From Lachnospiraceae bacterium (lineage in GTDB: Bacteria > Bacillota > Clostridia > Lachnospirales > Lachnospiraceae): a stretch of 64,000 nucleotides of DNA. The DNA lies in NCBI GenBank assembly GCA_014239155.1, contig JAAZZQ010000063.1, positions 1 to 64,000 on the forward strand. The letters are read 5' to 3'. The notes under the pieces are model-generated. The model had not been told where the DNA came from and made no database searches. It was given only the letters and a program-made list of their open reading frames with translations. Shown here piece by piece: positions 3,328 through 39,881 of the stretch. The stretch's first letter is position 1; every line of letters starts with the position of its first letter. Both the position numbers and the translations under genes were made by a program.

Positions 3328-3364
3328 AGCAAAAAAGATAGTTGCTTATGGAGGTAAATTTTTG

Positions 3365-4441
3365 ATGAGAACTTATTTGGTGACTGGCGGTGCGGGGTTT
3401 ATTGGATCCAATTATATTCATTATATGTTTCGCAAATACGACAATGCAATTCGGATTATCAATGTAGATGCCCTGACCTATGCTGGAAATCTTGAGAATT
3501 TAAAAGAGATTGAAAACAGAGAGAACTATACATTTATCAAGGCGGATATCACAGATAAGGAAGCGATTGCAAAGATTTTTGCGGAGAATGATATTGACAG
3601 AGTGGTTCATTTTGCAGCAGAAAGTCATGTGGACAGAAGCATTAAAAATCCAGAAATATTTGTTCAAACAAATGTTCTGGGAACCGCAGTAATGCTTAAC
3701 TGTGCAAAAGCAGCGTGGGAGTTTCCAGATGGCAGTTTCCGAGAAGGGAAAAAGTTTTTGCATGTTTCGACAGATGAAGTTTATGGTTCTTTGGAGGAAG
3801 ATGGCGGGTATTTTTATGAGACAACTCCCTATGCGCCGCACAGTCCTTACTCTGCGAGCAAGGCAGCCTCGGACATGCTTGTGCGCTCCTATATGGACAC
3901 CTATCAGTTTCCGGCAAATATTACCAATTGTTCTAATAATTATGGACCCTATCAGTTCCCAGAGAAATTTATTCCGCTGGTCATTAACAATGCACTTCAA
4001 GGAAAGAAGCTTCCTGTGTATGGAGATGGCAAAAATGTGCGTGACTGGCTTTATGTCGAGGACCACGCCAAGGCGATTGATATGGTGCAAGAGCAAGGCA
4101 AGTTGTTTGAAACCTATAATATTGGCGGACACAATGAGAAGCAAAATATAGAGATTATCCATATTATTCTTGAGACATTGCAGGAGCAGCTTGCGGAGGA
4201 TGATCCGCGAAAGCAATTGGTATCTGATAACCTAATCACCTATGTGGAAGACCGAAAAGGACATGATAGGCGTTATGCAATTGCGCCGGATAAGATTAAG
4301 GCGGAGATTGGATGGGAGCCGGAGACAATGTTTAAAGATGGTATTCGCCAGACAATTAAATGGTACTTTGAGCATGAGGATTGGATGAAAAATGCGACAA
4401 GTGGCGATTATCAGAAATATTATCAAGAAATGTACAAGTAA
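3365..4441 (+). CDS. rmlB: dTDP-glucose 4,6-dehydratase RmlB
   Basis: This is the second step of dTDP-L-rhamnose synthesis: it converts dTDP-glucose to dTDP-4-keto-6-deoxyglucose with bound NAD. The protein opens with the Rossmann motif TGGAGFIG, has the STDEVYGSL segment and the catalytic YSASKAASD (YxxxK) motif of extended short-chain dehydrogenases, and [17 protein letters not shown], which is typical of RmlB. At 358 residues its length fits the family. ATG at 3365 follows GGAGG at 3350-3354; a TTG three bases upstream is possible but less likely. rmlA follows after 140 bases and rmlC lies further down, so the locus supplies an activated deoxysugar for the wall polymer. Confidence 0.95.
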
Positions 4442-4556: not shown

Positions 4557-4581
4557 AAATGATACAGGAGGTTATTTTAAG

Positions 4582-5451
4582 ATGAAAGGAATAATATTAG
4601 CGGGCGGTTCTGGCACAAGACTTTATCCTTTGACCAAGGCGATTTCAAAACAGATTATGCCAGTCTACGACAAACCGATGATTTATTATCCACTGTCGAC
4701 TTTGATGCTTGCAGGAATTCGGGATATTTTAATTATCTCGACACCGCGGGATCTTCCGGTGTTCCAAGAATTGTTTGGAACAGGGGACCAGCTGGGGCTT
4801 CATATGGAGTATGCAATTCAGGAACAGCCGCGGGGACTTGCGGATGCGTTTATTATTGGGGCTGATTTTATTGGCGCGGATTCTGTGGCGCTAGTGTTGG
4901 GAGACAACATTTTCTATGGGCAAAGTTTCTCTAAGCTATTGCAGCGTGTTGCGGCAAAAAAGAGTGGTGCTACAATTTTTGGATACTATGTGCGTGACCC
5001 GCGGGAATATGGCGTGGTGGAGTTTGATGAGGATGGAAAAGCGATATCAATTGAGGAAAAGCCAGAGCATCCTAGAAGTAATTATGCGGTGCCCGGACTT
5101 TATTTTTATGACAATGATGTTGTGGAGATCGCTAGAAACGTAAAGCCATCTGCGCGCGGAGAGATTGAGATTACAAGCATTAACAATGAATATTTAGAAC
5201 GAGGAATGCTTACAGTGGAGACAATGGGGCGCGGTTTTGCATGGCTTGACACAGGAAATCATGACTCTCTTTTGGATGCGGCGGATTTTGTCTGCGCATT
5301 TCAAAAGCGACAGGGACTTTATATTTCCTGCATTGAAGAGATTGCATATAAAAGAGGCTTTATCACCAAGGAACAGCTTCTGCAACTTGCACAACCACTG
5401 ATGAAGACAGATTATGGAAAGTATCTTGTAGAGGTTGCAAATGGACTCTAA
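4582..5451 (+). CDS. rmlA: Glucose-1-phosphate thymidylyltransferase RmlA
   Basis: It makes dTDP-glucose from dTTP and glucose 1-phosphate, the first step of the rhamnose pathway. The N-terminus [18 protein letters not shown] is the nucleotide-binding signature of sugar nucleotidyltransferases. The motifs [45 protein letters not shown] and [15 protein letters not shown] are as expected for RmlA. The 289-residue length is normal. ATG at 4582 is preceded by AGGAGG at 4566-4571; the open frame upstream lacks a better start. It overlaps the next gene by 11 bases, so the two are translationally linked. Its substrate could come from the phosphoglucomutase at 18394. Confidence 0.96.
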
Positions 5452-6946: not shown

Positions 6947-7513
6947 ATGGGAAAGATTACAGTAGAGGAATGTGTTGCAGATGGGATGGTCATAGAAGGA
7001 TTGAAAGTGATTACACCACAAGTATTTGGCGACAACAGAGGATATTTTATGGAGACCTACAACTATAATGATTTTAAGGCGGCGGGTATCGATCAGGTTT
7101 TTGTGCAGGACAACCAGTCTGCTTCCAGAAAAGGAGTGCTTCGGGGACTGCATTTTCAGAAGAAGTTCCCGCAGGATAAGCTTGTACGCGCTGTCAGAGG
7201 AGAAGTGTTTGATGTTGTAGTTGATTTGCGGGAAGGGTCAAAAACCTTTGGAAAATGGTATGGAGTCTATTTATCGGAGGAGAATAAGAAACAGTTTTTT
7301 GTTCCAAAGAATTTTGCACATGGTTTTTTGGTGCTTTCAGACTATGCGGAGTTTTGTTATAAATGTACTGATTTTTATCACCCAAATGACGAGGGTGGTT
7401 TGTTATGGAATGATCCAGATATTGGGATTCAATGGCCGATTCCAGAAGGAATGGAGCTGACAATCCTAGAGAGAGATCAGAACTGGGGTGGCATAAAGGA
7501 ATTTAAGAGATGA
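6947..7513 (+). CDS. rmlC: dTDP-4-dehydrorhamnose 3,5-epimerase RmlC
   Basis: It epimerises dTDP-4-keto-6-deoxyglucose at C3 and C5, the third step to dTDP-L-rhamnose. RmlC cupin signatures are visible: the PQVFGDNRGYFMETYN start, FVQDNQSASRKGVLRGLHFQ (with the catalytic His in RGLHFQ), KLVRAVRGEVFDVVVDLR and FFVPKNFAHGFLVLSD. The 188-residue length is standard. The reductase RmlD does not follow; the next gene, an exporter permease, overlaps by four bases (ATGA). rmlC and the exporter are therefore translationally linked. ATG at 6947 has a modest GAAAGG upstream. Confidence 0.95.
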   Translation: MGKITVEECVADGMVIEGLKVITPQVFGDNRGYFMETYNYNDFKAAGIDQVFVQDNQSASRKGVLRGLHFQKKFPQDKLVRAVRGEVFDVVVDLREGSKTFGKWYGVYLSEENKKQFFVPKNFAHGFLVLSDYAEFCYKCTDFYHPNDEGGLLWNDPDIGIQWPIPEGMELTILERDQNWGGIKEFKR

Positions 7514-8511
7514 GAAAAGAATTGTCCAAGACCGCTGTCAAACTATATGTGACCCTTGCTGCAGCAGTGCTTGCGGCTGTGATTTTAATTCATCACAATC
7601 CGCTGGCAGACCCGCAGGAAGAGATGATTAAAAAGGTGATGGCTTGCTTCATTATTGTCAGTGCGATGGTGATTTTTTATCGGTTTTATGACAGATTGAT
7701 CACACTTCCAGTAGAACTATGGCAGTCGCGCAAGCTAATCTGGAAGCTTGCAAAAAATGATTTTAAAAACCGTTATGCGGGGTCGTATCTGGGGCGTGTG
7801 TGGGCGTTTACGCAGCCTGTAGTTACAGTATTGTTGTACTGGTTTGTGTTCGGACATGTTATGGGACAAGACAAGAAGGAGATTCTTAATGTCGGTGTGG
7901 AGGCGCCTTATGTATTGTGGCTTACAGCAGGACTTGTGCCGTGGTTTTACTTTAGTGAGGCGATTAACAACGGTACAACTTCGCTGTTGGAGTACAGTTA
8001 TCTGGTTAAGAAGGTTGTGTTTAAAATCAGCATTATTCCAATTGTAAAGCTGATAGCGGCGTCATTTGTCCACTTGTTTTTTGTTGCGTTTATGTTGCTT
8101 GTGTATTTTGTGTATGGATATAGACCATCTATCTGCCTGTTACAACTTTTGTATTATAGTTTCTGCATGTTTATGTTTGTGTTGGCACTTAGCTATTCAA
8201 CCTGCGCGATTGTTATTTTTTTCCGGGATTTGACACAGATTATTAATATTTTATTGCAGGTTGGTATGTGGGCGACTCCAATTTTATGGAATATTGCCCT
8301 GCTGGATAACAGTCCCATTCTTCAAAAGATTATGAAGATAAATCCAGTATTTTATATTGTGAATGGCTATCGGGATGCAATGTTTGCAGAGAAGTGGTTT
8401 TGGCAGGATTTTTATTCGACTGCTTACTTTTGGATTGTGACAGTGGTCTTTTTTGGTATTGGAGCATTAATATTCCGAAGGTTAAAAGTGCACTTTGCAG
8501 ATGTACTGTAA
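7510..8511 (+). CDS. ABC-2 type polysaccharide exporter permease (Wzm/TagG-like)
   Basis: This is the membrane subunit that, with the next gene product, moves a lipid-linked polysaccharide out of the cytoplasm. Two hydrophobic segments precede LWQSRKLIWKLAKNDFKNRY, the amphipathic region typical of Wzm/TagG permeases. About six further membrane segments follow, with the family pattern GSYLGRVWAFTQPVVTVLLY and a C-terminal NPVFYIVNGYRDAMF. The 333-residue size is longer than the usual 260-280 because of the extra N-terminal membrane hairpin (about residues 9-60). The start overlaps the rmlC stop (ATGA) and the ATPase follows directly. Confidence 0.92.
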   Translation: MRKELSKTAVKLYVTLAAAVLAAVILIHHNPLADPQEEMIKKVMACFIIVSAMVIFYRFYDRLITLPVELWQSRKLIWKLAKNDFKNRYAGSYLGRVWAFTQPVVTVLLYWFVFGHVMGQDKKEILNVGVEAPYVLWLTAGLVPWFYFSEAINNGTTSLLEYSYLVKKVVFKISIIPIVKLIAASFVHLFFVAFMLLVYFVYGYRPSICLLQLLYYSFCMFMFVLALSYSTCAIVIFFRDLTQIINILLQVGMWATPILWNIALLDNSPILQKIMKINPVFYIVNGYRDAMFAEKWFWQDFYSTAYFWIVTVVFFGIGALIFRRLKVHFADVL

Positions 8512-8524
8512 GCGAGGGGGAAAT

Positions 8525-9901
8525 ATGGAAGAAAAAAAAGAGGAAACAATGCATGTTGCAATTGCAGTGGAGAATGTCTGCAAGGTTTACCGTCTCTATG
8601 ATAAGCCAACGGACCGATTAAAAGAAGCACTTAAATTAACCAGAAAGCAGAAGTATCATGAATCTTATGCGTTGTCGAACGTAAGCTTTGATGTTCGGCA
8701 GGGAGAGTGTGTTGGTATTATTGGAACAAACGGTTCTGGAAAATCGACAATTTTAAAGATTATTACTGGGGTGTTAAATCCGTCAAGCGGTTCGGTCACT
8801 GTGAATGGGCGGATTTCTGCGCTTTTGGAGTTGGGCGCAGGATTTAATCAGGAGTATTCTGGCATTGAAAATATTTATTTAAATGGTACTATGAATGGTT
8901 TTTCTGAGGAAGAAATTAAGGCGAGAATGCAGGATATCCTTGATTTTGCAGATATTGGTGACTATGTTTATCAGCCGGTAAAGACTTATTCGAGTGGAAT
9001 GTTTGTGCGCCTTGCGTTTTCAGTGGCTATCAATATTGACCCAGAAATTTTAATTGTTGATGAAGCGCTTTCTGTTGGCGATGTGTTTTTTCAGGCAAAG
9101 TGTTATCACAAGTTTGAAGAATTCAAAAGAATGGGAAAGACGATTATGATTGTCAGCCATGATTTAAGCAGCATTGCCAAGTATTGTGACAGAGTAATTT
9201 TGCTCAATCAGGGAGTGAAGCTTGGCGAGGGTTCACCCAAAGAGATGATAGACGATTTTAAGCGTGTTTTGGTAGGACAGTATGAGCTGCCTGAATCAAA
9301 ATCAGAGCAAAGTCTAGTAAATGATGCGGAAGTACAGGAGGCAGTTCAGTCGCAAGCTGCTGCGCAAAAACGTGCAAGACAACAGTCAGATGGCAGGGAG
9401 ACAAAGACGCTTGAGTATGGCACACAGGAGGCAGTCATTGAGGAAATTTATTTGACAGATGACCGCGGAACACAGACCAATGCTATTATTAAAGGACTTT
9501 CTTTTAGCATCTGTATGCGCGTAAGATTTCAGCAAGATTTGCCAGCGCCGATTTTTGCCTTTTCAATTAAGACAGCCAAGGGTACTGAAATTACAGGAAC
9601 GAATACTATGTTTGAAAAGGCATTTTTGGAGCCGGTGAAGGCAGGGGCGGTAAAGGATATTCGTTTCACACAGAAAATGTCACTGCAAGGTGGTGAGTAT
9701 TTAATTTCATTTGGTGTTACAGGATACGAGGGAAATGATTTTAAGGTGTATCACAGACTCTATGACGCGTTGGATGTGACAGTAGTGTCCGACAAAAATA
9801 CAGTGGGATACTATGACATGGATTCCAAAGTGGTGGTCAGAGATGCGCATGAGAAAAGCGATTTGGGGGATAACATTATAAAGTACACAAAGATACAGTG
9901 A
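8525..9901 (+). CDS. ABC exporter ATPase with C-terminal recognition domain (Wzt-like)
   Basis: It powers polysaccharide export with the preceding permease. Walker A GTNGSGKST is at residues 67-75; YSSGMFVRLAFS is the signature motif, PEILIVDEALSVGD Walker B, and IVSHD the switch. Residues up to about 265 form the ATPase domain. A low-complexity linker (about 270-300) leads to a beta-rich domain (about 300-458) laid out like Wzt C-terminal domains, which in Gram-negatives bind the chemically capped end of the sugar chain. Gram-positive TagH proteins usually carry something else there. ATG at 8525 has GAGGGGG in front; an upstream in-frame ATG at 8495 lies inside the permease gene. The next gene encodes a putative methyltransferase-kinase, fitting a capping and recognition system. 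Confidence 0.9.
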   Translation: MEEKKEETMHVAIAVENVCKVYRLYDKPTDRLKEALKLTRKQKYHESYALSNVSFDVRQGECVGIIGTNGSGKSTILKIITGVLNPSSGSVTVNGRISALLELGAGFNQEYSGIENIYLNGTMNGFSEEEIKARMQDILDFADIGDYVYQPVKTYSSGMFVRLAFSVAINIDPEILIVDEALSVGDVFFQAKCYHKFEEFKRMGKTIMIVSHDLSSIAKYCDRVILLNQGVKLGEGSPKEMIDDFKRVLVGQYELPESKSEQSLVNDAEVQEAVQSQAAAQKRARQQSDGRETKTLEYGTQEAVIEEIYLTDDRGTQTNAIIKGLSFSICMRVRFQQDLPAPIFAFSIKTAKGTEITGTNTMFEKAFLEPVKAGAVKDIRFTQKMSLQGGEYLISFGVTGYEGNDFKVYHRLYDALDVTVVSDKNTVGYYDMDSKVVVRDAHEKSDLGDNIIKYTKIQ

Positions 9902-9922
9902 ACAGGAGCAGGTGGAGGCAGT

Positions 9923-12016
9923 ATGGCAGAGAAAATGCGGATAAAGCAGGAAAAAATCGGCGGTGTAATTATGGATTACACCTATTATGCGGGGCAGGAT
10001 TTGTATTCAGACGGCGCAGTGGAAGATGAGATGTTGGATATTGCAATGAACAATTCGCCAGAACAATTTTTGCAGATAATTGAAGAGAAGAAAAGCTGGC
10101 CGATTTTTTATCATTTCTCGCCGCTGCGCACAAATATTATTGACTGGATACCATTCAAAAAAACGGACAAGGTACTTGAGATTGGAGCTGGATGTGGGGC
10201 GATTACCAGCGCGCTGGTCCAGCGTGTTGACAGCGTCACTTGTGTGGATTTATCCAAAAAACGCAGTTTGGTCAATGCATATCGCAACTGTGATGCACAG
10301 AATCTTACGATTATGGTTGGTAATTTTAAAGAGATTGAGCCACATTTGGATACCGATTATGACTATGTACTACTGATTGGTGTTTTTGAGTACGGGCAGG
10401 CATACATCGGTGGGGCATCTCCTTACGAAGATTTTATGCGGATTTGTAACCGCCACAGGAAGCAGGAGGGACGTCTTGTCATTGCGATTGAAAATAAATT
10501 TGGATTAAAATATTGGGCAGGCTGTCGAGAGGACCATTTAGGGACTTATTTTTCAGGACTAGAAGGGTATCGCGAAGGAGGTTCCGCGAGAACGTTTACC
10601 AGACATGGATTGGAAAAGATATTAGACAAGGTTGGAATAACGGAATATAGGTTTTATTATCCATATCCAGACTATAAGTTTACAACAGCGATTTATTCAG
10701 ATGCTTATCTTCCTAAAAAGGGAGAGTTAAGCAATAACCTTAGAAACTTCGACAGAGAGCGAGTGCTTTTATTTGATGAGAAACAGGTGTTTGATGAGAT
10801 TTTAGACGAGAATGCATTTCCGCTGTTTTCCAATTCGTATTTATTGGTAGTTGGCAGTGCACCGAATGTAATTTACACCAAGTTTTCTAATGACAGGGCT
10901 GCAAAATGGGCAGTCCGCACATCAATTGTCAAGGAGCAGTCAGGATTGCTTCATGTGGAGAAGTTGCCAGACACGGAGGCGGCATATAAGCACTTAAAGA
11001 ATACCAAACAAGCATATGAACAATTGTCAATGCGCTATGAGGGGACAAAAATTAAAATCAATGCTTGCACTGCGATTGGGGAGGACCTTAGAAATGGACT
11101 CTCTTTTGTGTACTGCAATGGAAGGACACTAGAATCCTTGCTTGACGAGTGCTTAATGCGGGCGGATGTCGCAGGATTTAAGGCGTTGATTGAAGAGTAT
11201 CTGTATTGGTTACGCTACAAAGAAGACACGTTCGCAGTCAGCAACTTTGACTTTATTTTTCCCAATATTCTTGTGGACGGGGAGACATGGCATGTCATTG
11301 ACTATGAGTGGACATTTGACAAACATATTGATTCAAATGACATTGCTTTCCGGGCATTTTACAATTATATGCTTGGCGGAGAGATGCGCAGAGCGTGCAA
11401 GGACCTTCTTATGAATGATATTTTGGGATTTTCTGATGCACAGATAACAGAGGCGGCTATGGAGGAACAGGAGTTTCAGCTTCGGATTACACAGCGCCGT
11501 GCCTCGGCAGAACGAATGCGGGAACTGATTGGAAATCAGGCATATGCTCTGGAAGGAATGGTGCAGTATTGTCGTCATGCGGATCTTAAGTATGTGGTAC
11601 AGATTTTTATAGACTATGGTGAGGGATTTAGCGAGGAAAATTCCCAAAAACTACGAAATTGTTATCTTCTAGGAAGACATATGAAATTGGAGTTTGATAT
11701 TCCAGAAGGCGCAGTAAAGTTTCGGATTGATCCTTGCTCGTTTCCCTGTGTTGTAGAGGTTCTTAAAGTTCAGGTGGGAGATAGAGTTTATGCCATAGAG
11801 GAGATTGTGGCGAATGGCTGTTGGCAGGAATGCGGTGTGGTTGTGTTTGATCATGAAGATCCGAATCTGGCGTTTGATGTGGAAGGAGGCAGGCACCTTA
11901 TCGCAGAGTTAGACGTTCTGGAACTGCCACCACAGTTTGCAGAACAGATTGTGCAGGATGCAACAAAGAAGGGATTTCTTTCTAGGACAAAGGCGTTTTT
12001 TAAGCCAAAGAAATAA
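9923..12016 (+). CDS. Putative methyltransferase-kinase, WbdD-like chain-capping enzyme
   Basis: The N-terminal half is a class I SAM methyltransferase: motif I VLEIGAGCGAIT at residues 84-95, CVDLSKKR for the ribose-binding acidic residue, and IGVFEYG near 152. Residues about 315-500 look like a small-molecule or protein kinase fold: Asp443 and Asn448 in NFDFIFPNIL match the HxDxxxxN catalytic loop (His replaced by Asn), and Asp460 in HVIDYEW matches the metal-binding Asp. A helical part and a beta domain (about 588-670) follow. Its size (697 residues) and order resemble E. coli WbdD, which methylates and phosphorylates the end of O9a chains and so stops growth. It directly follows the exporter genes. 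The capping role is inference; the methyltransferase call is firm, the kinase call moderate. ATG 9923 has GGAGG five bases upstream; ATG 9971 is an alternative. Confidence 0.72.
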   Translation: MAEKMRIKQEKIGGVIMDYTYYAGQDLYSDGAVEDEMLDIAMNNSPEQFLQIIEEKKSWPIFYHFSPLRTNIIDWIPFKKTDKVLEIGAGCGAITSALVQRVDSVTCVDLSKKRSLVNAYRNCDAQNLTIMVGNFKEIEPHLDTDYDYVLLIGVFEYGQAYIGGASPYEDFMRICNRHRKQEGRLVIAIENKFGLKYWAGCREDHLGTYFSGLEGYREGGSARTFTRHGLEKILDKVGITEYRFYYPYPDYKFTTAIYSDAYLPKKGELSNNLRNFDRERVLLFDEKQVFDEILDENAFPLFSNSYLLVVGSAPNVIYTKFSNDRAAKWAVRTSIVKEQSGLLHVEKLPDTEAAYKHLKNTKQAYEQLSMRYEGTKIKINACTAIGEDLRNGLSFVYCNGRTLESLLDECLMRADVAGFKALIEEYLYWLRYKEDTFAVSNFDFIFPNILVDGETWHVIDYEWTFDKHIDSNDIAFRAFYNYMLGGEMRRACKDLLMNDILGFSDAQITEAAMEEQEFQLRITQRRASAERMRELIGNQAYALEGMVQYCRHADLKYVVQIFIDYGEGFSEENSQKLRNCYLLGRHMKLEFDIPEGAVKFRIDPCSFPCVVEVLKVQVGDRVYAIEEIVANGCWQECGVVVFDHEDPNLAFDVEGGRHLIAELDVLELPPQFAEQIVQDATKKGFLSRTKAFFKPKK

Positions 12017-12053: not shown

Positions 12054-14111
12054 ATGTTGGGAAAGATAAAAGGTGCTATACAGGACAGATTGTATCAGAA
12101 TTGCATTGAGGAGTATGAGAGAGACTTGCGCTGTCAGACCGATCCTTATCTGGTGTGGGTTCAAGAGAATGAGCAAAATGCTTCTAAAAGAGAGGGAGCA
12201 GAGCGATATCCCGAACTTGGTCTTGTCTATATGGAGGATTGTGGCAGTCGCTTCTCTTTGTCTAACATAAACAAAAAGTATCTTTTGTTTGTCTCACGGG
12301 AAGGCAGAATGGCAATAAATGCGATACATGAAATTGTGGAGTATTTTGAATCTCATCAGGATACAGATATAATTTATCCGGATGAAGATGTGTGGATGTT
12401 AGATCAAAGCAGATCACAGAATGTTCTGAAAGATGACGGGGGTGCGCATCGGGTTTTTCCGTGGACAAAGCCAGTGTGGTCACCGGATACCTTGTTTTCA
12501 TTCTTCTATTTTGGACACATCTTTGCAGTTCGCAGGGAGGCTTTCTTGTCGCTTGTGTGGCTTGGAGATACGGATTATCGTAGAAATATTTATGACTTTG
12601 TCTTGAAGGCATCGGAACAAGGCAATTGTCCAAATCATATTGAGAAGATACTTTTTCATGCATATGAGCGGGGAACTAGCAGGGAAGCGATTGAGGACAC
12701 ACTGATGCACAGAACGGATTTTATTGGTGTGGGTGATGCCTATGACGATATTCGCGTACAGGCAATGACACGGCGCAACCTTGCAGGAAGAATGGTAGTA
12801 GATACAAAAACCGGAATCTCCTATCCAGTTTATGAGGTGCCAGACAAGCCGCTTGTCAGTATTGTTATTCCCTCGAAGGATAACCCAACAGTGCTGCAAC
12901 AGTGCATTCGCTCTATTTATGCACATACAGATTATCCCAATTTTGAGTTGATTGTGGTTGACAATGGCAGTCGGGAGGAAGTGCGCGCCGCACTTGAATA
13001 TTTTCAGGAGGAGTGTTTTTTTCACTATTTGTATTTGCCAATGGACTTTAATTTTTCGCGAATGTGTAACTTGGGAGTGAAAGAGGCAAAGGGAACATAT
13101 ATTCTGCTACTCAATGATGATATGGAGGTAATTGAGAACACATGGCTGACGCGAATGGTTGGGCAGGCATCGCTGCGACATGTCGGTGCAGTAGGCGCAA
13201 AACTTTTATATCCAAACTCAACCAAAATACAGCATGTGGGGATTACCAATACCATATCGGGTCCCGGACATAAACTAAAACTCCTTGATGACAGCCTGTC
13301 TTACTATTATGGTAGAAATCGCTTTGTCTATGATATGATTGGTGTTACAGCAGCCTGCCTTTTAATACGAAAGGACTGTTTTCTTGCTATGGGAGGATTG
13401 TATGAGGGGCTTGCTGTGGCGTACAATGATGTCGATTTATGTTTCCGCCTGTGGGACAGAGGGTTATACAATGTCCAACGCAACGATGTTGTGTTGTATC
13501 ATCATGAATCGCTCAGCCGCGGAGATGACTTAAAAGATGAGAAAAAATTGAAACGCTTGACAGCAGAGAAAGATATACTTTATGAGCGACACCCCAATCT
13601 TTACCGAAAAGATCCTTTTATTGGAACGCTGTTAAACAGTGGTGATTCGGAGTACAGTTGCCGCTGGCTAGAAGGGTATGAGCGTTCGGATGCCATTGCT
13701 GTAGGAGATGTTCCCATAGCAGGGAAAAAGCTTCCGCCACAGGAAAAGATGAATCAAGCAATTATGATTGCCTTGGAAGATTGTGGGCGGGAAGGTCATG
13801 CAAAAAAGGCATACTATCTTATTAAAGGTTGGGCGTATATACCAGGCGTAGACAATGCACGCTACCGCTATAAAATCCTTTTTGTCAATAATGCAGGCAA
13901 TGTGTGGGAACTTCCTGTACAGAAGCGTTATCGCAAAGACGTGGCGGCAATTTTGCCAGACGAAACCAATGTAGAATTGACTGGATTTTGTAGCTGGATT
14001 TTTGAGGGCGCGCTGCCGCCAGATACGTATGAACTGTGGATGACTGCAAAAGATGGCTGTTCGAGACAGAGACTATATCGAAGGATGGAGAAAAAGCTGG
14101 CAATCGAATGA
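12054..14111 (+). CDS. Glycosyltransferase, family 2, with degenerate second GT domain
   Basis: The active GT2 domain spans residues about 267-500: PLVSIVIPSKDNPTVLQQCI, VVDNGS, and the metal-binding LLLNDDMEV (NDD 354-356), then IQHVGI, ACLLIRKDCF and AYNDVDLCFRLW. In front of it (about 70-205) is a region that matches the back half of the first GT2 domain of the gene at 16269 but without its DQDD motif, here replaced by FVSREG. A C-terminal beta-rich domain (about 565-680; LIKGWAYIPG...) is shared with the next protein. It probably adds a sugar, such as rhamnose, to the growing polymer in the cytoplasm; donor and linkage are unknown. It forms a tandem pair with the next gene, overlapping it by four bases. 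Confidence 0.85.
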   Translation: MLGKIKGAIQDRLYQNCIEEYERDLRCQTDPYLVWVQENEQNASKREGAERYPELGLVYMEDCGSRFSLSNINKKYLLFVSREGRMAINAIHEIVEYFESHQDTDIIYPDEDVWMLDQSRSQNVLKDDGGAHRVFPWTKPVWSPDTLFSFFYFGHIFAVRREAFLSLVWLGDTDYRRNIYDFVLKASEQGNCPNHIEKILFHAYERGTSREAIEDTLMHRTDFIGVGDAYDDIRVQAMTRRNLAGRMVVDTKTGISYPVYEVPDKPLVSIVIPSKDNPTVLQQCIRSIYAHTDYPNFELIVVDNGSREEVRAALEYFQEECFFHYLYLPMDFNFSRMCNLGVKEAKGTYILLLNDDMEVIENTWLTRMVGQASLRHVGAVGAKLLYPNSTKIQHVGITNTISGPGHKLKLLDDSLSYYYGRNRFVYDMIGVTAACLLIRKDCFLAMGGLYEGLAVAYNDVDLCFRLWDRGLYNVQRNDVVLYHHESLSRGDDLKDEKKLKRLTAEKDILYERHPNLYRKDPFIGTLLNSGDSEYSCRWLEGYERSDAIAVGDVPIAGKKLPPQEKMNQAIMIALEDCGREGHAKKAYYLIKGWAYIPGVDNARYRYKILFVNNAGNVWELPVQKRYRKDVAAILPDETNVELTGFCSWIFEGALPPDTYELWMTAKDGCSRQRLYRRMEKKLAIE

Positions 14112-16252
14112 AAGAAAAAACATTACAATATCAGAAAGAACTTTTTGCACAGAAGACACCATATCTGCAATGGTTAAGACAGCAAAAGACACAAGATACA
14201 GATACAATGGTTGTTTCGGGGAAGCAGATAAACAAGCTTCCCTTTTCTTCGTGTATGGATTGTATAAAATGCTTTGGTGAAATTAAGGCGGAGCAAATCT
14301 ATCTGTTTGTAAGAGAGGGCGGGACACTGACAGCATATGCAGAACAGAAAATCGCAGCGCATTTTCTTACATCTGAGGAGAATGACAGAACACTGTTTGT
14401 CTATGCAGATGAAGATTATACAGGAAGCTTGCAAGCGCTTTACGGTATAGAGGAACAGTGTTTTGATGTTGCGGTCACAATGCCTTATCAATACTGTATG
14501 GAAAAGGGAGAAACGTACTACAGAGGACTCCCTTGGTTTAAACCGGATTTTTCACCGGATACGCTCGCTTCTTTTTTCTATCTTGGCAGCGTGTTTGCGA
14601 TTCGCGGAGATGTGATTTTAAAGATAATTGGTCAATATCAGAATGAAATTGATATTTATGAACTTGTCTATTGGATTTTTCAGGAGGCGTTAGAACGACA
14701 TCAGTCGGGAAAAAATACTGGAATTATCCATATATCAGAGGTATTGTACACCAATGGCTATCAAAGGCAAGCACAGCAAATAGAGTGTTCCAAAAAAATT
14801 CAAAAGCTGTATCAAAAGGAGCCAAAAAAGGAAAAAGTATCTATTATTATTTTAAGCAAAGACCATGCAGAATTATTAAAAAAATGTTTGGAGACATTGA
14901 TTCAGTACACAGAATATGAAAATTATGAAGTGATTGTTGTGGATAATGGCAGCAGTCCAGAACAAAAACAGCGGATATTGAACAGAATAGATGCACACAA
15001 TAACACAGATAAAAAACATAAGATTTTCTATTATTATCAGAGACAGGAATTTAATTTTTCTGCACTGTGCAATATTGGCGCGCAGTATGCAAATGGTCGT
15101 TATCTACTTTTTATGAATGATGATGTGCAAGTAATGGGGACTGCGGAAGGTAGAAAATGGCTAGACAAAATGATGGTATATGCCGCAAAGCCTTATGTGG
15201 GCGCTGTGGGGGCAAAATTGTATTATCCAAGTTCTTTAGAGGAGGATTGTGATAGAATCCAACATGTGGGAATTACCAATATGGGGATTGGACCTGCACA
15301 TAAATTAAATGGTAGAAAAGATACAGGCTGTATCTATTATGGGCGCAACACACAAAATTATAATATGTTGGCGGTTACGGCTGCCTGTATGCTGATAAAA
15401 AAGTATGTGTTTGATACGGTCGGCGGATTTGATGCATCTTTTCCAGTAGCGTACAATGATGTAGAGCTTTGTTTTCGGTTATACCAGCAGGGATATTTTT
15501 CGGTGCAAGTTAATGAGGCAGTACTGATTCACCATGAATCTCTTAGTCGGGGATATGATTTTTCTCCAGAAAAACAGCGGCGACTGCAAGAGGAAAAGGA
15601 ACGTTTATATAAAAAATATCCTTTATTTTGCGCCGCAGACCCTTTTTATAGCCCGCATTTGGTACAGTGGAAAAAAGATATAGATTACAATGTCAATTAT
15701 TTATATGCGTGTGATAAAATGGCAGAGCCTGTGCTTTTAACTGGGCAGATAGCAAAGCATAAGAGTGGAAAAGGGATAAGTAAAATAATACAACGAGAAT
15801 ATTTTCGGGAACAGCTCTATCAAAAAAATACCACAGTTGGAAAAGTGTATGACCATATCACAGGCAGGCATCGTTTTATACTTCAAATAGATGGTGTGGA
15901 GCAGAATGATATAGAAGTGAAAATAACTGGTTGGTGTGTAAAACGCAATCAGGATAACGCAGGCATTTCTCGAACAATTTGGCTTGTTGAGGAGACAAAA
16001 AAACTTGGCACTGGAACAATCTATGCGTTTGATTTGCCGCCAAAATTGCGCGAAGATGTGGCAGAATTGTTTGCAAGGGACAAAAATACAGAACATGTGG
16101 CGCTCTCAGGTATAAATCTATTGTTTGCAAAACAAGGTTTGCGCTCTGGAAAATATCGAATAGGAGTTCTTGTTGATAAGAAACATATGCTATATATACA
16201 AGACCAAGCAGGAAGTTTGGTGTTTGTAAAAGTTGAAAAAGATTCACAGTAG
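14108..16252 (+). CDS. Glycosyltransferase, family 2, paralogue of the preceding gene
   Basis: It has the same three-part build as its neighbour: a degenerate GT2-like region (residues about 60-215, FVREGG where a DxD motif would be, then YADEDYTG and FKPDFSPDTLASFF), an active GT2 domain (about 243-480; VSIIILSKDHAELLKKC, VVDNGSS, FMNDDVQV with NDD 337-339, AYNDVELCFRLY), and a C-terminal beta domain (about 600-705; ITGWCVKRN...). The ATG at 14108 overlaps the previous stop as ATGA and was chosen over an in-frame ATG 72 bases earlier for that reason. Sequence divergence from its neighbour suggests a different donor or linkage rather than redundancy. Function beyond sugar transfer is inferred only from the locus. 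Confidence 0.85.
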   Translation: MKEKTLQYQKELFAQKTPYLQWLRQQKTQDTDTMVVSGKQINKLPFSSCMDCIKCFGEIKAEQIYLFVREGGTLTAYAEQKIAAHFLTSEENDRTLFVYADEDYTGSLQALYGIEEQCFDVAVTMPYQYCMEKGETYYRGLPWFKPDFSPDTLASFFYLGSVFAIRGDVILKIIGQYQNEIDIYELVYWIFQEALERHQSGKNTGIIHISEVLYTNGYQRQAQQIECSKKIQKLYQKEPKKEKVSIIILSKDHAELLKKCLETLIQYTEYENYEVIVVDNGSSPEQKQRILNRIDAHNNTDKKHKIFYYYQRQEFNFSALCNIGAQYANGRYLLFMNDDVQVMGTAEGRKWLDKMMVYAAKPYVGAVGAKLYYPSSLEEDCDRIQHVGITNMGIGPAHKLNGRKDTGCIYYGRNTQNYNMLAVTAACMLIKKYVFDTVGGFDASFPVAYNDVELCFRLYQQGYFSVQVNEAVLIHHESLSRGYDFSPEKQRRLQEEKERLYKKYPLFCAADPFYSPHLVQWKKDIDYNVNYLYACDKMAEPVLLTGQIAKHKSGKGISKIIQREYFREQLYQKNTTVGKVYDHITGRHRFILQIDGVEQNDIEVKITGWCVKRNQDNAGISRTIWLVEETKKLGTGTIYAFDLPPKLREDVAELFARDKNTEHVALSGINLLFAKQGLRSGKYRIGVLVDKKHMLYIQDQAGSLVFVKVEKDSQ

Positions 16253-16268
16253 AAAGGTGTGGGGCAAA

Positions 16269-18275
16269 ATGGCAAAGGATATGATTGACATACATCAGAA
16301 TAAGGAAGTGCAAGATGTGCAATTCTATAAGCAGGCATATGAGCAGGAGAAGGCGCGCGCAGCGTCTCTTGCAGGCAGGCTTGCAGATGCCAGAAATGAG
16401 GCGGACAGCCTGCAATTTCAATTGGACCGCATCAAAAAGAATCCGCTGTGGAAGGCATCAAAGCCTTTGCGTCAGACAATGCACTGGGGACTTCGCAATT
16501 ATCGGCGTCTGCGGAATCTAGGCGGACCCAAAGGAATTGCCAGAAAATTAAAACAAAAGCGCATTGAGGCGGAGGCAAAGAAGCTTCATGGAACCGCAAG
16601 TTTCCCAACGCCGGAGGAGGCAGAGCGGCAAAAAAACACTGTGTTTGACCAGATGGTAAAAATTAGTATTTTGGTGCCACTATGGAATAATCAGCGGGAG
16701 TTCCAGATAGAGATGCTTGACTCCGTGATGAACCAGACGTATCAGAACTGGGAACTTTGTCTGGCAGATGGTTCTGACGAGACACACAGTTATATTGCAG
16801 AGATCTGCAAAGAATATGCCGCGCGCGCAAACGGCAGAATTATTTACCATAAATTAGAGAAAAATGATGGCATTGCTGGAAATACAAACGAGTGCTTAAA
16901 ACTTGCCACTGGCACTTATCTTGGTCTGCTTGACCAAGATGATGTTTTGCATCCTTGTGCGCTTTACGAGTATGTGAAGGCAATTAATGAACTGGAAGCG
17001 GATTATATTTATTGTGACGAGACTACGTTTAAGGGAAACAGCATTGACAATATGATTACATTGCATTTTAAGCCAGATTTTGCACCAGATAATCTGCGCG
17101 CAAACAATTATATTTGTCATTTTAGCGTGTTTTCGCGGGAGCTTCTGGAAGGAACTGAGCTTTTCCGGAGTGGTTTTGATGGGAGTCAGGACCACGATAT
17201 GATTCTGCGGCTGACCGCAAATGCAAAAAAAGTGGTACATGTGCCAAAATTGCTGTATTACTGGCGTTCGCATAAAACAAGTGTGGCGAGTGATATCAAT
17301 GCAAAACCCTATGCGATAGCGGCGGCAAAAGGGGCAGTGGCAGACCATTTAACACGCTGCGGATTTAAAAATTTTGAAATTAAAAGCACCCGTGCGTTTG
17401 ACACAATCTTTGAGATTAAGTATGAGATTCGCAGTGAGGACAAAATTTCGATTTTAATTCTAAACAAGGATCACGTGGAGGACTTAAAACGTTGTATTGA
17501 CTCGATTAAAGAACGAAGCACTTACAGCAATTATGAGATTATTATAATAGAGAATAACAGTGAAAAGAAAACTGTTTTTGACTATTATGACACCATTAAA
17601 AAACAGAAAAACATAACAATTGTTACGTATACAGGCGCGTTTAACTACGCAAAGATCAATAATTTTGGCGCTGGCTATGCGACAGGAAAATATCTCTTGT
17701 TATTAAATAATGATACGCAGGTAATTTCTATGAATTGGATGGAGTCTATGTTGATGTACGCCCAGCGCCCTGACGTGGGAGCCGTCGGCGCAAAGCTTTA
17801 TTATGGCGATCGAACAATTCAACATGCAGGGGTAGTGATTGGACTTGGCGCACATAGAACGGCAGGGCACACACACTATAAAATCAACTATGACAATCTT
17901 GGTTATATGGGGCGACTGTGTTATGCACAGAATGTATCCGCAGTGACTGGTGCATGTTTGATGGTTAGAAAGAGCCTTTATGATGCACTTGGCGGACTCG
18001 ATGAAGCGTTTGCGGTGGCTCTTAATGATGTGGATTTCTGTCTGCGTGTCAGAGAGAAAGGGTATTTGAATGTCTTCACTCCATTTGCAGAGCTGTATCA
18101 TTTTGAGTCCGCTTCGCGCGGCAGCGATGTTGTGGATGCAAAAAAGGCAGAGCGCTACGAGAAGGAGTCGGTGCTGTTTCGGGAGCGGTGGAAGGAGCTT
18201 TTGGCAAAAGGGGATCCTTATTACAATCCAAACTTTTCTTTGGACCGCAGCGATTATTCTTTAAGAATAAATTAA
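16269..18275 (+). CDS. Two-domain family 2 glycosyltransferase
   Basis: An N-terminal coiled-coil (residues about 15-65) ends in the KKNPLWKASKPLR motif seen in many polysaccharide GT proteins. GT2 domain one starts at 131 (KISILVPLWNNQREF), has ADGSDE and the metal-binding LLDQDDVLHP (222-227), then DGSQDHDMILRL and LYYWRSH. GT2 domain two starts at 392 (KISILILNKDHVEDLKRC) with LLLNNDTQV (NND 480-482), IQHAGVVIG, and ALNDVDFCLRV. Both appear complete, so it may form two alternating linkages of a repeat unit. ATG at 16269 follows AAAGGTG at 16253-16259; an earlier TTG lies inside the previous gene. Domain one is close to the gene at 20680; domain two to the active domains of the two previous genes. 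Confidence 0.88.
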   Translation: MAKDMIDIHQNKEVQDVQFYKQAYEQEKARAASLAGRLADARNEADSLQFQLDRIKKNPLWKASKPLRQTMHWGLRNYRRLRNLGGPKGIARKLKQKRIEAEAKKLHGTASFPTPEEAERQKNTVFDQMVKISILVPLWNNQREFQIEMLDSVMNQTYQNWELCLADGSDETHSYIAEICKEYAARANGRIIYHKLEKNDGIAGNTNECLKLATGTYLGLLDQDDVLHPCALYEYVKAINELEADYIYCDETTFKGNSIDNMITLHFKPDFAPDNLRANNYICHFSVFSRELLEGTELFRSGFDGSQDHDMILRLTANAKKVVHVPKLLYYWRSHKTSVASDINAKPYAIAAAKGAVADHLTRCGFKNFEIKSTRAFDTIFEIKYEIRSEDKISILILNKDHVEDLKRCIDSIKERSTYSNYEIIIIENNSEKKTVFDYYDTIKKQKNITIVTYTGAFNYAKINNFGAGYATGKYLLLLNNDTQVISMNWMESMLMYAQRPDVGAVGAKLYYGDRTIQHAGVVIGLGAHRTAGHTHYKINYDNLGYMGRLCYAQNVSAVTGACLMVRKSLYDALGGLDEAFAVALNDVDFCLRVREKGYLNVFTPFAELYHFESASRGSDVVDAKKAERYEKESVLFRERWKELLAKGDPYYNPNFSLDRSDYSLRIN

Positions 18276-23110: not shown

Positions 23111-23147
23111 GAGTTAAATTCTTTCCATTGGAATTAAGGTGAAGAAA

Positions 23148-24557
23148 TTGATAAGAGATAATCAGAAGTATTTTAACAGACTGCTGGTTTTGCTCGATGC
23201 ACTGGTTATAGGAGCCTCTTACTGGCTTTCTTGGTTTTTGTGGCTCGGCGGATATGTGAAAGAAAATGACCCCGGTACAGGTATTTTGGCAGTGCAGATT
23301 TATTTCACTGCATTTGTCGTAATCGTTCCGGGATATCTGATTCTGTACAATACGTTTGATCTGTATTCATCCAAGCGTACAGCAAAGACAGTATACGAGA
23401 TTTTTAATATTATAAGGGCAAATACCATTGGGCTTCTGGCGGTTATGGTAGTACTTTTTGCGATTAATATCCCAGATTTTTCGCGTGGTATGATTGGTGT
23501 TTTCTACGGAATAAACATTGTGGCAGAGTCGCTTATGCGAAAATCTGTTCGATATGGACTGCGACGAATGCGCAAGAAAGGCTACAATGTCAAGCATATT
23601 CTACTGGTGGGATACTCGCGTGCGGCGGAGGAATATATCAATAAGATTAAGGCGAATCCTGAGTGGGGATACGAGGTCTGTGGTATATTGGATGACCATG
23701 TTCCTGTTGGAGCTGTCTATAAAGGGGTTCAAGTGACAGGAGAAATTGACGCGCTAAACGCCATACTACCAGAGAATAGGCTGGATGAGATTGGTATTAC
23801 GCTTTCTTTGTCAGATTATGACAGACTAGAAAGTATTGTTAATATCTGTGAGAAATCAGGAGTTCATACAAAGTTTATTCCCGATTACAATAGCGTCATT
23901 CCAAGCAGACCCTATCTGGAAGATCTTGATGGGCTTGCAGTGGTAAATATTAGGAGAGTACCACTTAACAATATGGCAAACATGTTAATAAAACGGTTGG
24001 TGGACATTGTAGGCGCGTTGGTTGCTATTATATTGTCTTCTCCGTTTATGCTGGCGGCAGCAATTAGTGTAAAAGCGACGAGCAGAGGACCTCTGATTTT
24101 TAAGCAAGAGAGGGTAGGGTTGCACAACAAGCCTTTCCAGATGTATAAATTTCGGAGCATGGAGGTACAAAGTAGCGCTGATGAAAAGAAAGGCTGGACG
24201 ACTAAAAATGATCCGAGAGTTACAAAAGTGGGCAGGATTCTCCGGAGTACGAGTATCGATGAGCTTCCACAGTTTTTTAATGTGTTAAAGGGGGATATGA
24301 GTCTGATCGGTCCGCGCCCTGAGAGACCTCTTTTTGTTGAAAAATTTAAGGAAGAGATTCCCAGATATATGATTAAACATCAAGTACGGCCTGGGATAAC
24401 GGGATGGGCACAGGTAAATGGATATAGGGGAGATACCTCGATTAAAAAGCGAATTGAGTATGATCTTTACTATATTGAAAACTGGTCGATGACATTTGAT
24501 TTGAAAATTTTATTTCTTACAGTATTTAAAGGATTTATTAATAAAAATGCTTATTAA
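23148..24557 (+). CDS. Undecaprenyl-phosphate phosphosugar transferase (WbaP-like, polymer initiation)
   Basis: It transfers a phosphosugar from a nucleotide sugar to undecaprenyl phosphate, the committed step of polymer synthesis. Four to five membrane segments fill residues 10-130, then a Rossmann-like CoA-binding domain (HILLVGYSRAAEEYI), then the catalytic bacterial sugar transferase domain: KRLVDIVGALVAI hairpin, KQERVGLHNKPFQMYKFRSM, STSIDELPQFFNVLKGDMS, IGPRPERP and RPGITGWAQVNGYRG. The start is taken as TTG at 23148, six bases after AAGGTGA, because relatives I recall start at the equivalent IRDNQKYFN; GTG at 23139 is the alternative. The sugar transferred cannot be read from sequence. 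Confidence 0.9.
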   Translation: MIRDNQKYFNRLLVLLDALVIGASYWLSWFLWLGGYVKENDPGTGILAVQIYFTAFVVIVPGYLILYNTFDLYSSKRTAKTVYEIFNIIRANTIGLLAVMVVLFAINIPDFSRGMIGVFYGINIVAESLMRKSVRYGLRRMRKKGYNVKHILLVGYSRAAEEYINKIKANPEWGYEVCGILDDHVPVGAVYKGVQVTGEIDALNAILPENRLDEIGITLSLSDYDRLESIVNICEKSGVHTKFIPDYNSVIPSRPYLEDLDGLAVVNIRRVPLNNMANMLIKRLVDIVGALVAIILSSPFMLAAAISVKATSRGPLIFKQERVGLHNKPFQMYKFRSMEVQSSADEKKGWTTKNDPRVTKVGRILRSTSIDELPQFFNVLKGDMSLIGPRPERPLFVEKFKEEIPRYMIKHQVRPGITGWAQVNGYRGDTSIKKRIEYDLYYIENWSMTFDLKILFLTVFKGFINKNAY

Positions 24558-24732
24558 GGAATTGTAGGAAAATAAGTGATACAGATTGCGTAGGATATTT
24601 CTTCGAGATTGTAGGCAAAAAACATAGGTGTAGCGGGCTGCAGCAAGGCTTTCTGTAAGCACTTTTCTATCAATAATTCTGTGCAGAAGTACAAATTTGT
24701 GGGCCGCTTTTGGCAGCATGGAGGTTTATAAA

Positions 24733-26319
24733 ATGCAGGAGTATGATAATAATCAAAATAATAATATCAGGAGGATGCCAAGCGGCAGTGACAGACAGCC
24801 GAGAAGTCAGATGCAGAGTGGTCAAGCAAGAAGACCTGTATCAAGACCAGTGCGTCAGGGGATGGCAGAGAGTCAGTCAAGACCAGTGCGTCAGGGGACT
24901 ACGTCCAGTCAAAGACCAATGCGTCAGAATGCGTCGGAGAGTCAGTCAAGGTCCATGCATCAGAGAACTGTAGAAGACCAGTCAAGGTCCATGCGCCAAA
25001 GTACAGCGGAGGGACAGACAAGGCACAAACCAGCGAATGGACAGTCTGTAAGACCGATGCAGGGCGGTCAACCAAGGCCGACAGGGCAGGGAGGACCAAA
25101 CAATCAATCAAAGAGACCCGTGTCGGAGGTGCGGCCAACCAATAAAAAAGTACAAAACATGGCAGGAAGTGCACCAAAGAAAAAGAGTGGAAAAAACAAA
25201 AAAAGTTTGACCCCGCAACAAGCGTCAAAGAAAAAGAGAAAAAAGATTATACTGTTTATATCAGAAATTTTTTTGCTGCTGATACTAGTTGGTGCGCTGT
25301 GGGCAGTCAAAAAGTCACAGTTAATTCAATATGTTGATATAAAACCAGATGATGTGCATATCAATAAGGAAGTCCAACAGGTTATTGATGATGGCACTAC
25401 TACTATGAAAGGATACAGAAATATTGCGTTGTTTGGCGTGGACTCGCGCGATAAAGAACTTGATAAAAATACACGAACAGATGTAATTATGATTGCGTCG
25501 ATTAATCAGGACACAAAGAAAGTTAAGCTGGTGTCTGTGTACCGTGACACTTGGTTAAATCTATCAACAGATAAGTACAGCAAGGCAAATGCCGCTTATG
25601 CAAAAGGTGGAGCAAAGCAGGCAATCAGTATGCTCAATATGAACCTTGACATGGATATTACAGATTTTGTCACCGTGGGGTTTGATGCAGTAATTCATGT
25701 AATAGATGCAGTTGGCGGTGTTGAGATTAATGTGACTGAGGCAGAAATTAAAGACTTAAACAACTATCAGATTTCAATGGTAGGAAAGCAGACAGGATTG
25801 AATGCAAAAGGAGAGCCTAATTTTGAGGCAAAGGCGGGCGTGGATTATACTCCTGTCACAAAACCAGGCTTGCAGACATTAAATGGTTTGCAGGCGACAG
25901 CATATTCGCGTATCCGCTATGTTGGAGGAGATGGGGCGAGAACAGAAAGACAGAGAACGGTTCTGACACAGATGGCGAAAAAGGCAATGCAGATGAAGCC
26001 CGCCAAGATTGATGAGATTACAAATGCTGTGTTTAGTGAGATAGCGACGTCCCTCTCAATACAGGAAATTTTATCACTGCTTGCAGATATTGCAAGTTAT
26101 GATATTGGTGAGACGTCCGGTTTTCCATTTGCAGATCATGTGAAAATGAATGGACACGTGGGAAATCAGAGTGTTGTTGTACCAATCGATCTGAAAAAGA
26201 ATGTAACCTTGCTGCATGAGTTTTTGTTTGACGAACAAGATTATGTTCCATCAGAGACTGTAAAGGAGTGTAGCCAGCGTATTGCGGCAGAAACGGGTAT
26301 CAATTATAATGGAGAATAG
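24733..26319 (+). CDS. LytR-CpsA-Psr (LCP) wall-polymer ligase with basic repeat tail
   Basis: LCP enzymes move the finished polymer from its lipid carrier to peptidoglycan on the outer face of the membrane. Residues 1-170 form a cytoplasmic, Arg/Gln-rich low-complexity tail with repeats such as SQSRPVRQG and SQSRSMRQS, ending in a Lys-rich patch (KKKRKK). A membrane helix lies at about 172-192. The LCP domain follows: NIALFGVDSRD, TRTDVIMIASIN, VSVYRDTWLNL, YSRIRYVGGDGARTERQRTVL, carrying the conserved Arg and Asp that bind pyrophosphate. ATG at 24733 has GGAGGT seven bases upstream (24720-24725); earlier in-frame starts lack spacing. The long basic tail is unusual for the family. A terminator follows at 26328. 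Confidence 0.93.
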   Translation: MQEYDNNQNNNIRRMPSGSDRQPRSQMQSGQARRPVSRPVRQGMAESQSRPVRQGTTSSQRPMRQNASESQSRSMHQRTVEDQSRSMRQSTAEGQTRHKPANGQSVRPMQGGQPRPTGQGGPNNQSKRPVSEVRPTNKKVQNMAGSAPKKKSGKNKKSLTPQQASKKKRKKIILFISEIFLLLILVGALWAVKKSQLIQYVDIKPDDVHINKEVQQVIDDGTTTMKGYRNIALFGVDSRDKELDKNTRTDVIMIASINQDTKKVKLVSVYRDTWLNLSTDKYSKANAAYAKGGAKQAISMLNMNLDMDITDFVTVGFDAVIHVIDAVGGVEINVTEAEIKDLNNYQISMVGKQTGLNAKGEPNFEAKAGVDYTPVTKPGLQTLNGLQATAYSRIRYVGGDGARTERQRTVLTQMAKKAMQMKPAKIDEITNAVFSEIATSLSIQEILSLLADIASYDIGETSGFPFADHVKMNGHVGNQSVVVPIDLKKNVTLLHEFLFDEQDYVPSETVKECSQRIAAETGINYNGE

Positions 26320-37966: not shown

Positions 37967-38022
37967 AAATGACCGTATCGGTTAAATTAAATTTAGAGTA
38001 ATAGGCTCAGGATTAAAAGAGA

Positions 38023-38069
38023 AGCCGGTTCCAGATACGCTTTCACTGAAAGTTTTTCGATAACCGGCT
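38023..38069. terminator. Inverted repeat between convergent genes (candidate two-way terminator)
   Basis: AGCCGGTT (38023-38030) pairs with AACCGGCT (38062-38069), with an inner CTTTC-ACT-GAAAG (38040-38052). It lies between trpS (+) and an oppositely oriented gene (-). A T-rich stretch follows on the minus side (TCTCTTTTAATCC); the plus side has none. Confidence 0.5.
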
Positions 38070-38101
38070 GTCTTGCCTGCCCTTATCCTATTTCATTTCC
38101 T

Positions 38102-38629: not shown

Positions 38630-38650
38630 TTTTTCACCCCTTTTAGACAA

Positions 38651-39409: not shown

Positions 39410-39614
39410 AAATATCTCCTGAAAATTCTCATTTGTCTTTGGAATATTATACATCTATTCACCACTTTTGGGAATACCTGTAAAAAGTTGTAAACTGCTG
39501 AAAAATTCACAAAATAGGTTGTAATTTTTTATATATTCGTTATTACGAAGATATTTAAATACCAGAATATATTTTATTCTATGGTGAAAGATAACATCAA
39601 AGGAGGTGTTGAAT

Positions 39615-39824: not shown

Positions 39825-39837
39825 AAATTATAAATTT

Positions 39838-39881
39838 GCAGCAGTAATGTTTACGGATTACTACTGCTTAAATTTACTTTT
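39838..39881 (+). terminator. Intrinsic terminator after the Xre gene
   Basis: GCAGCAGTAAT (39838-39848) pairs with ATTACTACTGC (39857-39867) with one mismatch and an eight-base loop, followed by TTAAATTTACTTTTAA. It starts 14 bases after the stop codon. Confidence 0.7.

Follow-up and report, generated by a model that had tools for sequence, protein, structure and literature searches.

A putative O7-type methyltransferase-kinase chain terminator beside a Wzt with a cap-binding domain in a Lachnospiraceae rhamnose-polysaccharide locus

The window analysed here is a stretch of 64,000 nucleotides from a Lachnospiraceae bacterium (GenBank assembly GCA_014239155.1, contig JAAZZQ010000063.1, positions 1 to 64,000), the source genome of which comprises 4.57 Mb in 89 contigs. 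Three consecutive plus-strand genes are its subject: a Wzm-like ATP-binding cassette (ABC) permease of 333 aa (7510..8511; PF01061, E 1.5e-19), a Wzt ATPase with a C-terminal cap-binding domain (8525..9901; PF00005 and PF14524), and a 697-aa methyltransferase-kinase, the presumed chain terminator (9923..12016), recognised from its open reading frame (ORF), Pfam matches, a predicted structure and hidden Markov models (HMMs) built in this study. The ATPase and enzyme frames are both present in the ORF list of the window; read from a TTG codon the Wzt frame spans 8495-9901 (468 aa), and a start at 8525 gives 458 aa. An enzyme 99% identical to it is encoded in a Lachnospiraceae metagenome-assembled genome. 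Gene names used for the window, such as rmlB, gtC and wzm, were assigned in the present analysis. The locus probably encodes a Gram-positive polymerase-terminator-export system.

The methyltransferase domain of the enzyme covers residues 9-304 (9947..10834) and was assigned by our own HMM and by tblastn matches to two plasmid proteins; several Pfam methyltransferase families match near VLEIGAGCGAIT. A kinase domain lies at residues 313-547 (10859..11563) and is supported by its predicted fold. When this part was predicted alone, the mean predicted local distance difference test (pLDDT) score was 89.7 and structure comparison returned a kinase-like fold, with APH(3')-Ia, of the aminoglycoside-kinase type, as the best row of the VIA comparison. 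The catalytic stretch (11249..11311) was conserved across 66 homologous kinase domains, with D443, N448 and E462 present in all 66 and D460 and W463 in 65 each. The sequence-only reading of this locus had described a S-adenosylmethionine (SAM) methyltransferase domain and a kinase-like part retaining Asp443, Asn448 and Asp460; both were confirmed, at the positions named and, for the kinase, in the predicted fold. A beta-rich domain (residues 556-668, 11588..11926), with eight strands predicted by AlphaFold2 between residues 559 and 667, lies at the place of the Ig-like carbohydrate-binding module (CBM) of the O7 ORF6 protein discussed below.

Searches by sequence recovered mainly the methyltransferase. 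Among solved structures, phmmer matched the window enzyme to 14 entries, all methyltransferases, and a profile search added weak matches to the JAK1 kinase (E about 0.02). Pkinase was matched by Pfam in 4 of 41 homologues, a search with two split kinases yielded nothing useful, and the VIA fold list for the full-length model covered the methyltransferase and nothing beyond it. The two activities travel together: 64 of the 66 loci taken from other genomes encode methyltransferase and kinase in one protein or in adjacent genes, and the two exceptions, L047 and L049, begin at a contig end. Fusions of the kinase to glycosyltransferases (GTs) occur in L053, L055 and L065, and in L050 the methyltransferase, kinase, beta domain and GTs are fused in one frame of 1472 aa. 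Relatives of the methyltransferase part, of 748-759 aa, were also seen on contigs C27 and C41 of the source genome, G000 (L002:1285-3531 and L003:1351-3627); they end in a cytidylyltransferase-like domain (PF01467) and are perhaps enzymes for an activated sugar or polyol.

The nearest relative of the enzyme is the ORF6 terminator of Klebsiella pneumoniae O7 and not WbdD. As described in 2024, ORF6-O7 comprises a methyltransferase, a kinase, an Ig-like CBM, a coiled coil and two GT2 modules (PMC11231755). The kinase of that protein, unannotated and 223 aa long, is described as nearest to AmiN, with catalytic residue D441 and an inactive D441A variant; the enzyme places a phosphate on O3 of the terminal rhamnose and methylates this phosphate (PMC11231755). 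Orthologues are named there in alpha- and gammaproteobacteria and in cyanobacteria, and the term Gram-positive is absent from the text of that report (PMC11231755).

A tblastn search of plasmids with the window enzyme matched 2 of 72,556 records, from P. asturiensis and C. braakii (E 1e-29 and 6e-30), the homology to these two gammaproteobacterial proteins lying in the methyltransferase part. Comparison with ORF6-O7 runs via the P. asturiensis protein (1457 aa), in which Y28, Y66, G91, G93, E112 and Y158 are the SAM-binding residues printed for ORF6-O7. Opposite these SAM residues the window has Y28, Y63, G88, G90 and D109, with Y157 one column past E156/E157; Y28 and Y157 are each kept in 51 of 64 homologous methyltransferase domains. 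Window D443 stands opposite P. asturiensis D443, which corresponds to D441 of ORF6-O7. In a three-sequence search, the Gram-positive kinase profile found the P. asturiensis kinase with a domain E of 4.3e-10 and that of C. braakii with just 0.0045. Downstream in the window, a double GT2 glycosyltransferase (16233..18275, plus strand), the likely polymerase half, shares 36.7% identity over 550 columns with the C-terminal double GT2 of the O7-type P. asturiensis protein. ORF6-O7 and the window enzyme have in common the order of methyltransferase, aminoglycoside-kinase-like kinase with catalytic Asp, and beta-rich domain, as well as a rhamnose chain, which is predicted in the window; the presumed P. 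asturiensis and C. braakii counterparts of ORF6-O7 also directly follow wzm-wzt. The window enzyme and ORF6-O7 differ in that the GTs of the window are separate proteins, that no clear coiled coil was found there, that the family is Gram-positive and that an LCP gene lies near. Because of the SAM and catalytic residues, the kinase profile match, the double GT2 match and the preceding wzm-wzt genes, the window apparently holds the same machine as O7, split between terminator and polymerase halves.

The sequence-only reading had taken WbdD of E. coli O9a as its model, from a control scheme established in Gram-negatives in which WbdD methylates and phosphorylates the end of the chain, so that it stops growing, and the Wzt C-terminal domain recognises this cap ahead of export. 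The terminator-reader logic of that model was retained; the kinship was not. WbdD of E. coli O9/O9a (PMC3482155) resembles the window enzyme in carrying two activities in one protein, in standing beside a cap-binding Wzt and in its gene order (wzm, wzt and terminator follow one another in the window, E. coli O9, P. asturiensis and C. braakii alike), and the catalytic spacing is D-x4-N-x12-D in WbdD against D-x4-N-x11-D in the window. It differs in its H132/H133 pair, which is unmatched in the window, in its coiled coil and in its mannan chain. Using hhalign, the profile aligned to the E. coli O9 protein over the methyltransferase alone (probability 83); the E. coli HS gene used is annotated merely as a methyltransferase and was taken as WbdD from its place and length (708 aa). 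A WbdD-type kinase was sought with the profile against this single E. coli protein and gave a probability of 0.4 over 20 columns, which does not exclude one. Against the methyltransferase of E. coli O8 the methyltransferase profile gave no match (E 0.04). In a full-length comparison with Foldseek, WbdD entries took ranks 1, 2, 3 and 5, the best of them at E 6.9e-11. Their template-modelling (TM) scores were 0.19-0.31 and their root-mean-square deviations 14-18 Å, so that superposition fails over the alignment as a whole, and membership of the WbdD group was not accepted from this result. WbdD was not among the best 50 kinase-alone fold matches listed, which tells nothing either way.

The ATPase partner matches ABC_tran at residues 50-182 and is 35% identical to the E. 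coli O9 Wzt over 436 columns, and 35-38% identical to the Wzt proteins of E. coli O9, P. asturiensis and C. braakii. The beta-rich extension that the sequence-only reading had noticed proved to be a Wzt_C domain (residues 296-432, 9410..9820; PF14524, E 1.4e-41) and not an unrelated one. Of the 66 loci of other genomes, 53 show a Wzt that has the C-domain, in 9 the only Wzt is a short one, and the remaining 4, each of which runs to a contig end, show no Wzt. In 52 of these 53 loci the end of the Wzt frame lies somewhere from 53 bp within the enzyme frame to 157 bp ahead of it; in L065 the Wzt lies downstream. A profile survey of 250 genomes of the family, in which a few first-look candidates were scored per genome, found the enzyme in 130, Wzt_C in 147 and both in 126 (Fisher p 8.5e-43, a value that ignores relatedness), in keeping with the co-occurrence expected by the sequence-only reading. 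The figure of 130 is possibly somewhat high, since a related paralogue can also match the survey profile, and one does so in the source genome. Places were listed for 125 of the enzyme-bearing genomes and lacking for 5 of 130; Wzt_C lay less than 400 bp upstream in 96 of these 125 and was within 5 kb in 117, on the same strand. At class level (n=291), 19 genomes had the enzyme and 47 had Wzt_C, and a comparison of the lists placed both in 16 of the 19, one of them via a C-terminal match only.

The short-Wzt loci (L054, L056, L057, L059, L060, L062, L063, L067 and L069) belong to the Eubacterium plexicaudatum clade, plus L063; absence of Wzt_C was confirmed by Pfam for L057 only. Of the nine, only L063 has a match to the enzyme's beta domain; the other eight lack one. 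Unusually long Wzm frames of 446-479 aa were seen in L066 (5116-6549), L040 and L052, possibly reflecting just an early start; the L066 stretch is weakly like the terminator beta domain (E 2e-3).

The cap pocket of Wzt_C was compared with that of Aquifex aeolicus Wzt, in which L300, T346, A348 and W362 are described as the pocket for a 3-O-methyl cap, with the Trp (W362) stacking on the methyl cap (PMC9445017). The corresponding stretch of the window Wzt runs from S395, G397 and T399 to R411, Y413 and D414 (9707..9766), opposite Aquifex T346, A348, H350 and W362. These pairs were read by eye from the HMMER alignment of Aquifex to a profile built on 13 linked domains and 3 Gram-negative ones (E 3.2e-12), which has no gaps over the pocket stretch; the chain numbering is one above that of the paper. 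Within the same domain, Aquifex N313 stands opposite window N360, whereas T346, A348 and W362, with which Aquifex reads its 3-O-methyl group, are replaced by S395, G397 and R411. Window K349 was considered as a phosphate ligand and dropped; it lies opposite Aquifex Arg302, an ATPase-domain contact.

Linked Wzt proteins were defined as every Wzt of at least 400 aa in an enzyme locus, L001 and L063 excluded (n=51). In the profile alignment S395, R411, Y413 and D414 were present in all 51 and G397 in 49, and S, G, R, Y and D occupy the same columns in the Wzt proteins of E. coli O9 and of the two presumed O7-type systems, P. asturiensis and C. braakii. Of these three, only E. coli O9/O9a has a cap that is known. 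Twenty-one unlinked Wzt_C domains were picked by hand from the survey (14 from enzyme-free genomes, 6 from enzyme-bearing ones and 1 from the second locus of the source genome); at the R411 column they had 13 aromatic residues, 6 gaps, 1 Arg and 1 Cys. With MAFFT, R411 was found in 0 of 21 unlinked proteins with 17 gaps, and the profile alignment was preferred. The profile favours linked sequences, and its bit scores are circular, because it was built from the 13 linked and 3 Gram-negative sequences. The control, the E. coli O8 Wzt (methyl cap), did not align at the R411 column (a gap, or Lys if forced). It has Ala, Ala and His at columns 395, 397 and 399 and, as in Aquifex, a Trp 12 residues past the His opposite His350, a placement made by eye without program support. 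The Arg and the small residues of the linked pocket may give space for a charged methyl-phosphate. The source genome has a second wzm-wzt pair with Wzt_C (G000:C63:60000-74000; L083:1909-8697), followed by a 1557-aa protein with a GT2-like end; the R411 signature is missing from the pocket of this second Wzt_C, which makes a different cap likely there.

The three genes lie within a plus-strand gene run (375-26319) of rml genes, two GH25 genes, wzm, wzt, the enzyme and several GT2 genes, which also holds a phosphoglucomutase, GtrA, a sugar-phosphate transferase and a LytR-CpsA-Psr (LCP) protein. The dTDP-rhamnose pathway is represented by an rmlB-like dehydratase (3362..4441; PF16363 and PF01370, the name inferred from both matches and the neighbours), an rmlA-like nucleotidyltransferase (4579..5451; PF00483, E 8.2e-78) and the dTDP-sugar epimerase rmlC (6947..7513; PF00908, E 1.7e-71); a strong match to RmlD lies elsewhere in the genome (PF04321, E 5.7e-88). 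Two GT2 glycosyltransferases (12054..14111 and 14108..16252; both PF00535) precede the double GT2. A polyprenyl-phosphate sugar transferase (23139..24557; PF02397, E 1.2e-73) is a candidate for chain initiation, and the LCP protein (24697..26319; PF03816, E 4e-31) a candidate for wall attachment. The GH25 muramidase-type proteins (375-3296 and 5435-6748) stand on either side of rhamnose genes, one of them with Big_2 and choline-binding repeats, a layout that recurs in many related loci. At 38001-40000 the GC content falls to 0.324 with negative GC skew, unlike the remaining window.

In the mechanism that we propose, a rhamnose-containing chain would be assembled on a polyprenyl carrier in the cytoplasm, and the 9923 protein would transfer a phosphate to the end sugar of the growing chain and then methylate that phosphate. 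This methyl-phosphate cap would halt chain growth and would be bound by the C-terminal domain of Wzt, in which R411 would replace the aromatic residue of methyl-cap readers. Binding would license export through Wzm-Wzt, after which the LCP enzyme may attach the chain to the wall.

Several observations weigh against this scheme. The Pfam search of the window protein gave no kinase match. The beta domain matched P. asturiensis residues 564-626 weakly in the three-sequence search (domain E 0.009). A crude heptad scan found no clear coiled coil in the 9923 protein (best scores 3.3 for residues 500-697 and 4.3 for 1-500, against 6.2 for the WbdD coil and 5.1 for P. asturiensis), and the start of the 16233 GT scored 5.3, barely above the 5.1 found elsewhere in that protein. 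K347, kept in 64 of 66 kinase domains, faces His in the P. asturiensis protein and Arg in that of C. braakii, where Glu also stands for the third Asp; not every relative, therefore, need be an active kinase. Wzt_C taken alone is merely 17-23% identical to the three Gram-negative domains, so that the argument rests on the common pocket signature. Wzt_C was missing in 4 of 130 enzyme-bearing family genomes, and was not on the contig of the enzyme in 8 of 125. Finally, in 9 of the 66 loci the enzyme persists, catalytic residues included, beside a Wzt of 245-275 aa, so a cap can serve without a Wzt_C reader; in K. pneumoniae O1/O2, published export is by a transporter without a cap-binding domain (PMC11231755). 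The cap-export logic put forward by the sequence-only reading therefore stands for a terminator beside a cap-reading Wzt, as judged by sequence, and not as a universal coupling.

The short-Wzt loci also favour the view that the enzyme decorates the chain or a side group without ending growth, Wzt_C reading some other feature. This is very improbable in our judgement, given the operon place of the enzyme, its GT fusions, its homology to relatives of a terminator of shown function and the enzyme-linked subtype of Wzt_C. Alternatively, the two proteins may be the terminator and reader of a different cap, which might be an unmethylated phosphate, a cyclic phosphate, or an O-methyl on the sugar with a phosphate placed separately. 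WbdD H132 and H133 are held to be important for phosphate methylation (PMC3482155); in the hhalign alignment they face window E156 and Y157, and no Arg stands opposite WbdD R203 where a P-x-P stretch was paired by eye. The S-layer glycan of C. difficile SLCT-11, moreover, is described with a terminal 2,3-cyclophosphoryl-rhamnose (PMC6254364). However, ORF6-O7, which methylates phosphate, has Tyr158 at this place (LEY in P. asturiensis, FEY in the window), and the pairing of methyltransferase and kinase in nearly all loci also counts against this rival; another cap appears unlikely.

Capped chains in Gram-positives are not new as an idea. WsaE of Geobacillus stearothermophilus is described with a methyl-capped rhamnan and a Wzt predicted to bind the cap (PMC2943079), and the authors of the SLCT-11 study speculated on an analogy with O9a (PMC6254364). 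Compared by description, the Geobacillus system shares with the proposed one a Gram-positive rhamnan, a terminal cap and the predicted cap-binding Wzt, and differs in its methyl cap, in being an S-layer glycan and in that the description consulted gives no kinase; SLCT-11 shares with the proposed system a Gram-positive rhamnose-containing chain, ABC export and phosphate on the terminal rhamnose, and differs in its cyclic phosphate, its S-layer setting and the lack of a named capping enzyme in the account consulted. The novelty claimed by the sequence-only reading narrows accordingly: in the literature searched, mostly without subscription papers, there was no Gram-positive methyltransferase-kinase terminator with a cap-reading Wzt, and no pocket rule. 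As both precedents are S-layer glycans, the exported chain could be an S-layer or other protein glycan instead of a wall polymer, which would be compatible with the best explanation of the cap; with an LCP gene in the same gene run (a protein ligase was not searched for), we think this rather improbable.

To our knowledge, the control of the length of ABC-exported surface polysaccharides in Gram-positives is still open. It is conceivable, if somewhat short of an even chance, that about half of the sampled family genomes cap a wall rhamnan with methyl-phosphate and export finished chains only, and that a single Wzt pocket position, aromatic for methyl and Arg for methyl-phosphate, predicts the cap across Gram-positives and Gram-negatives. 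If the proposed mechanism is true, the surface polymer of a common gut family would end in a phosphate group for which the transporter checks. The polymer would then have a defined chain-end epitope, loss of a single gene should leave chains trapped or longer, and Wzt would carry a directly testable residue code.

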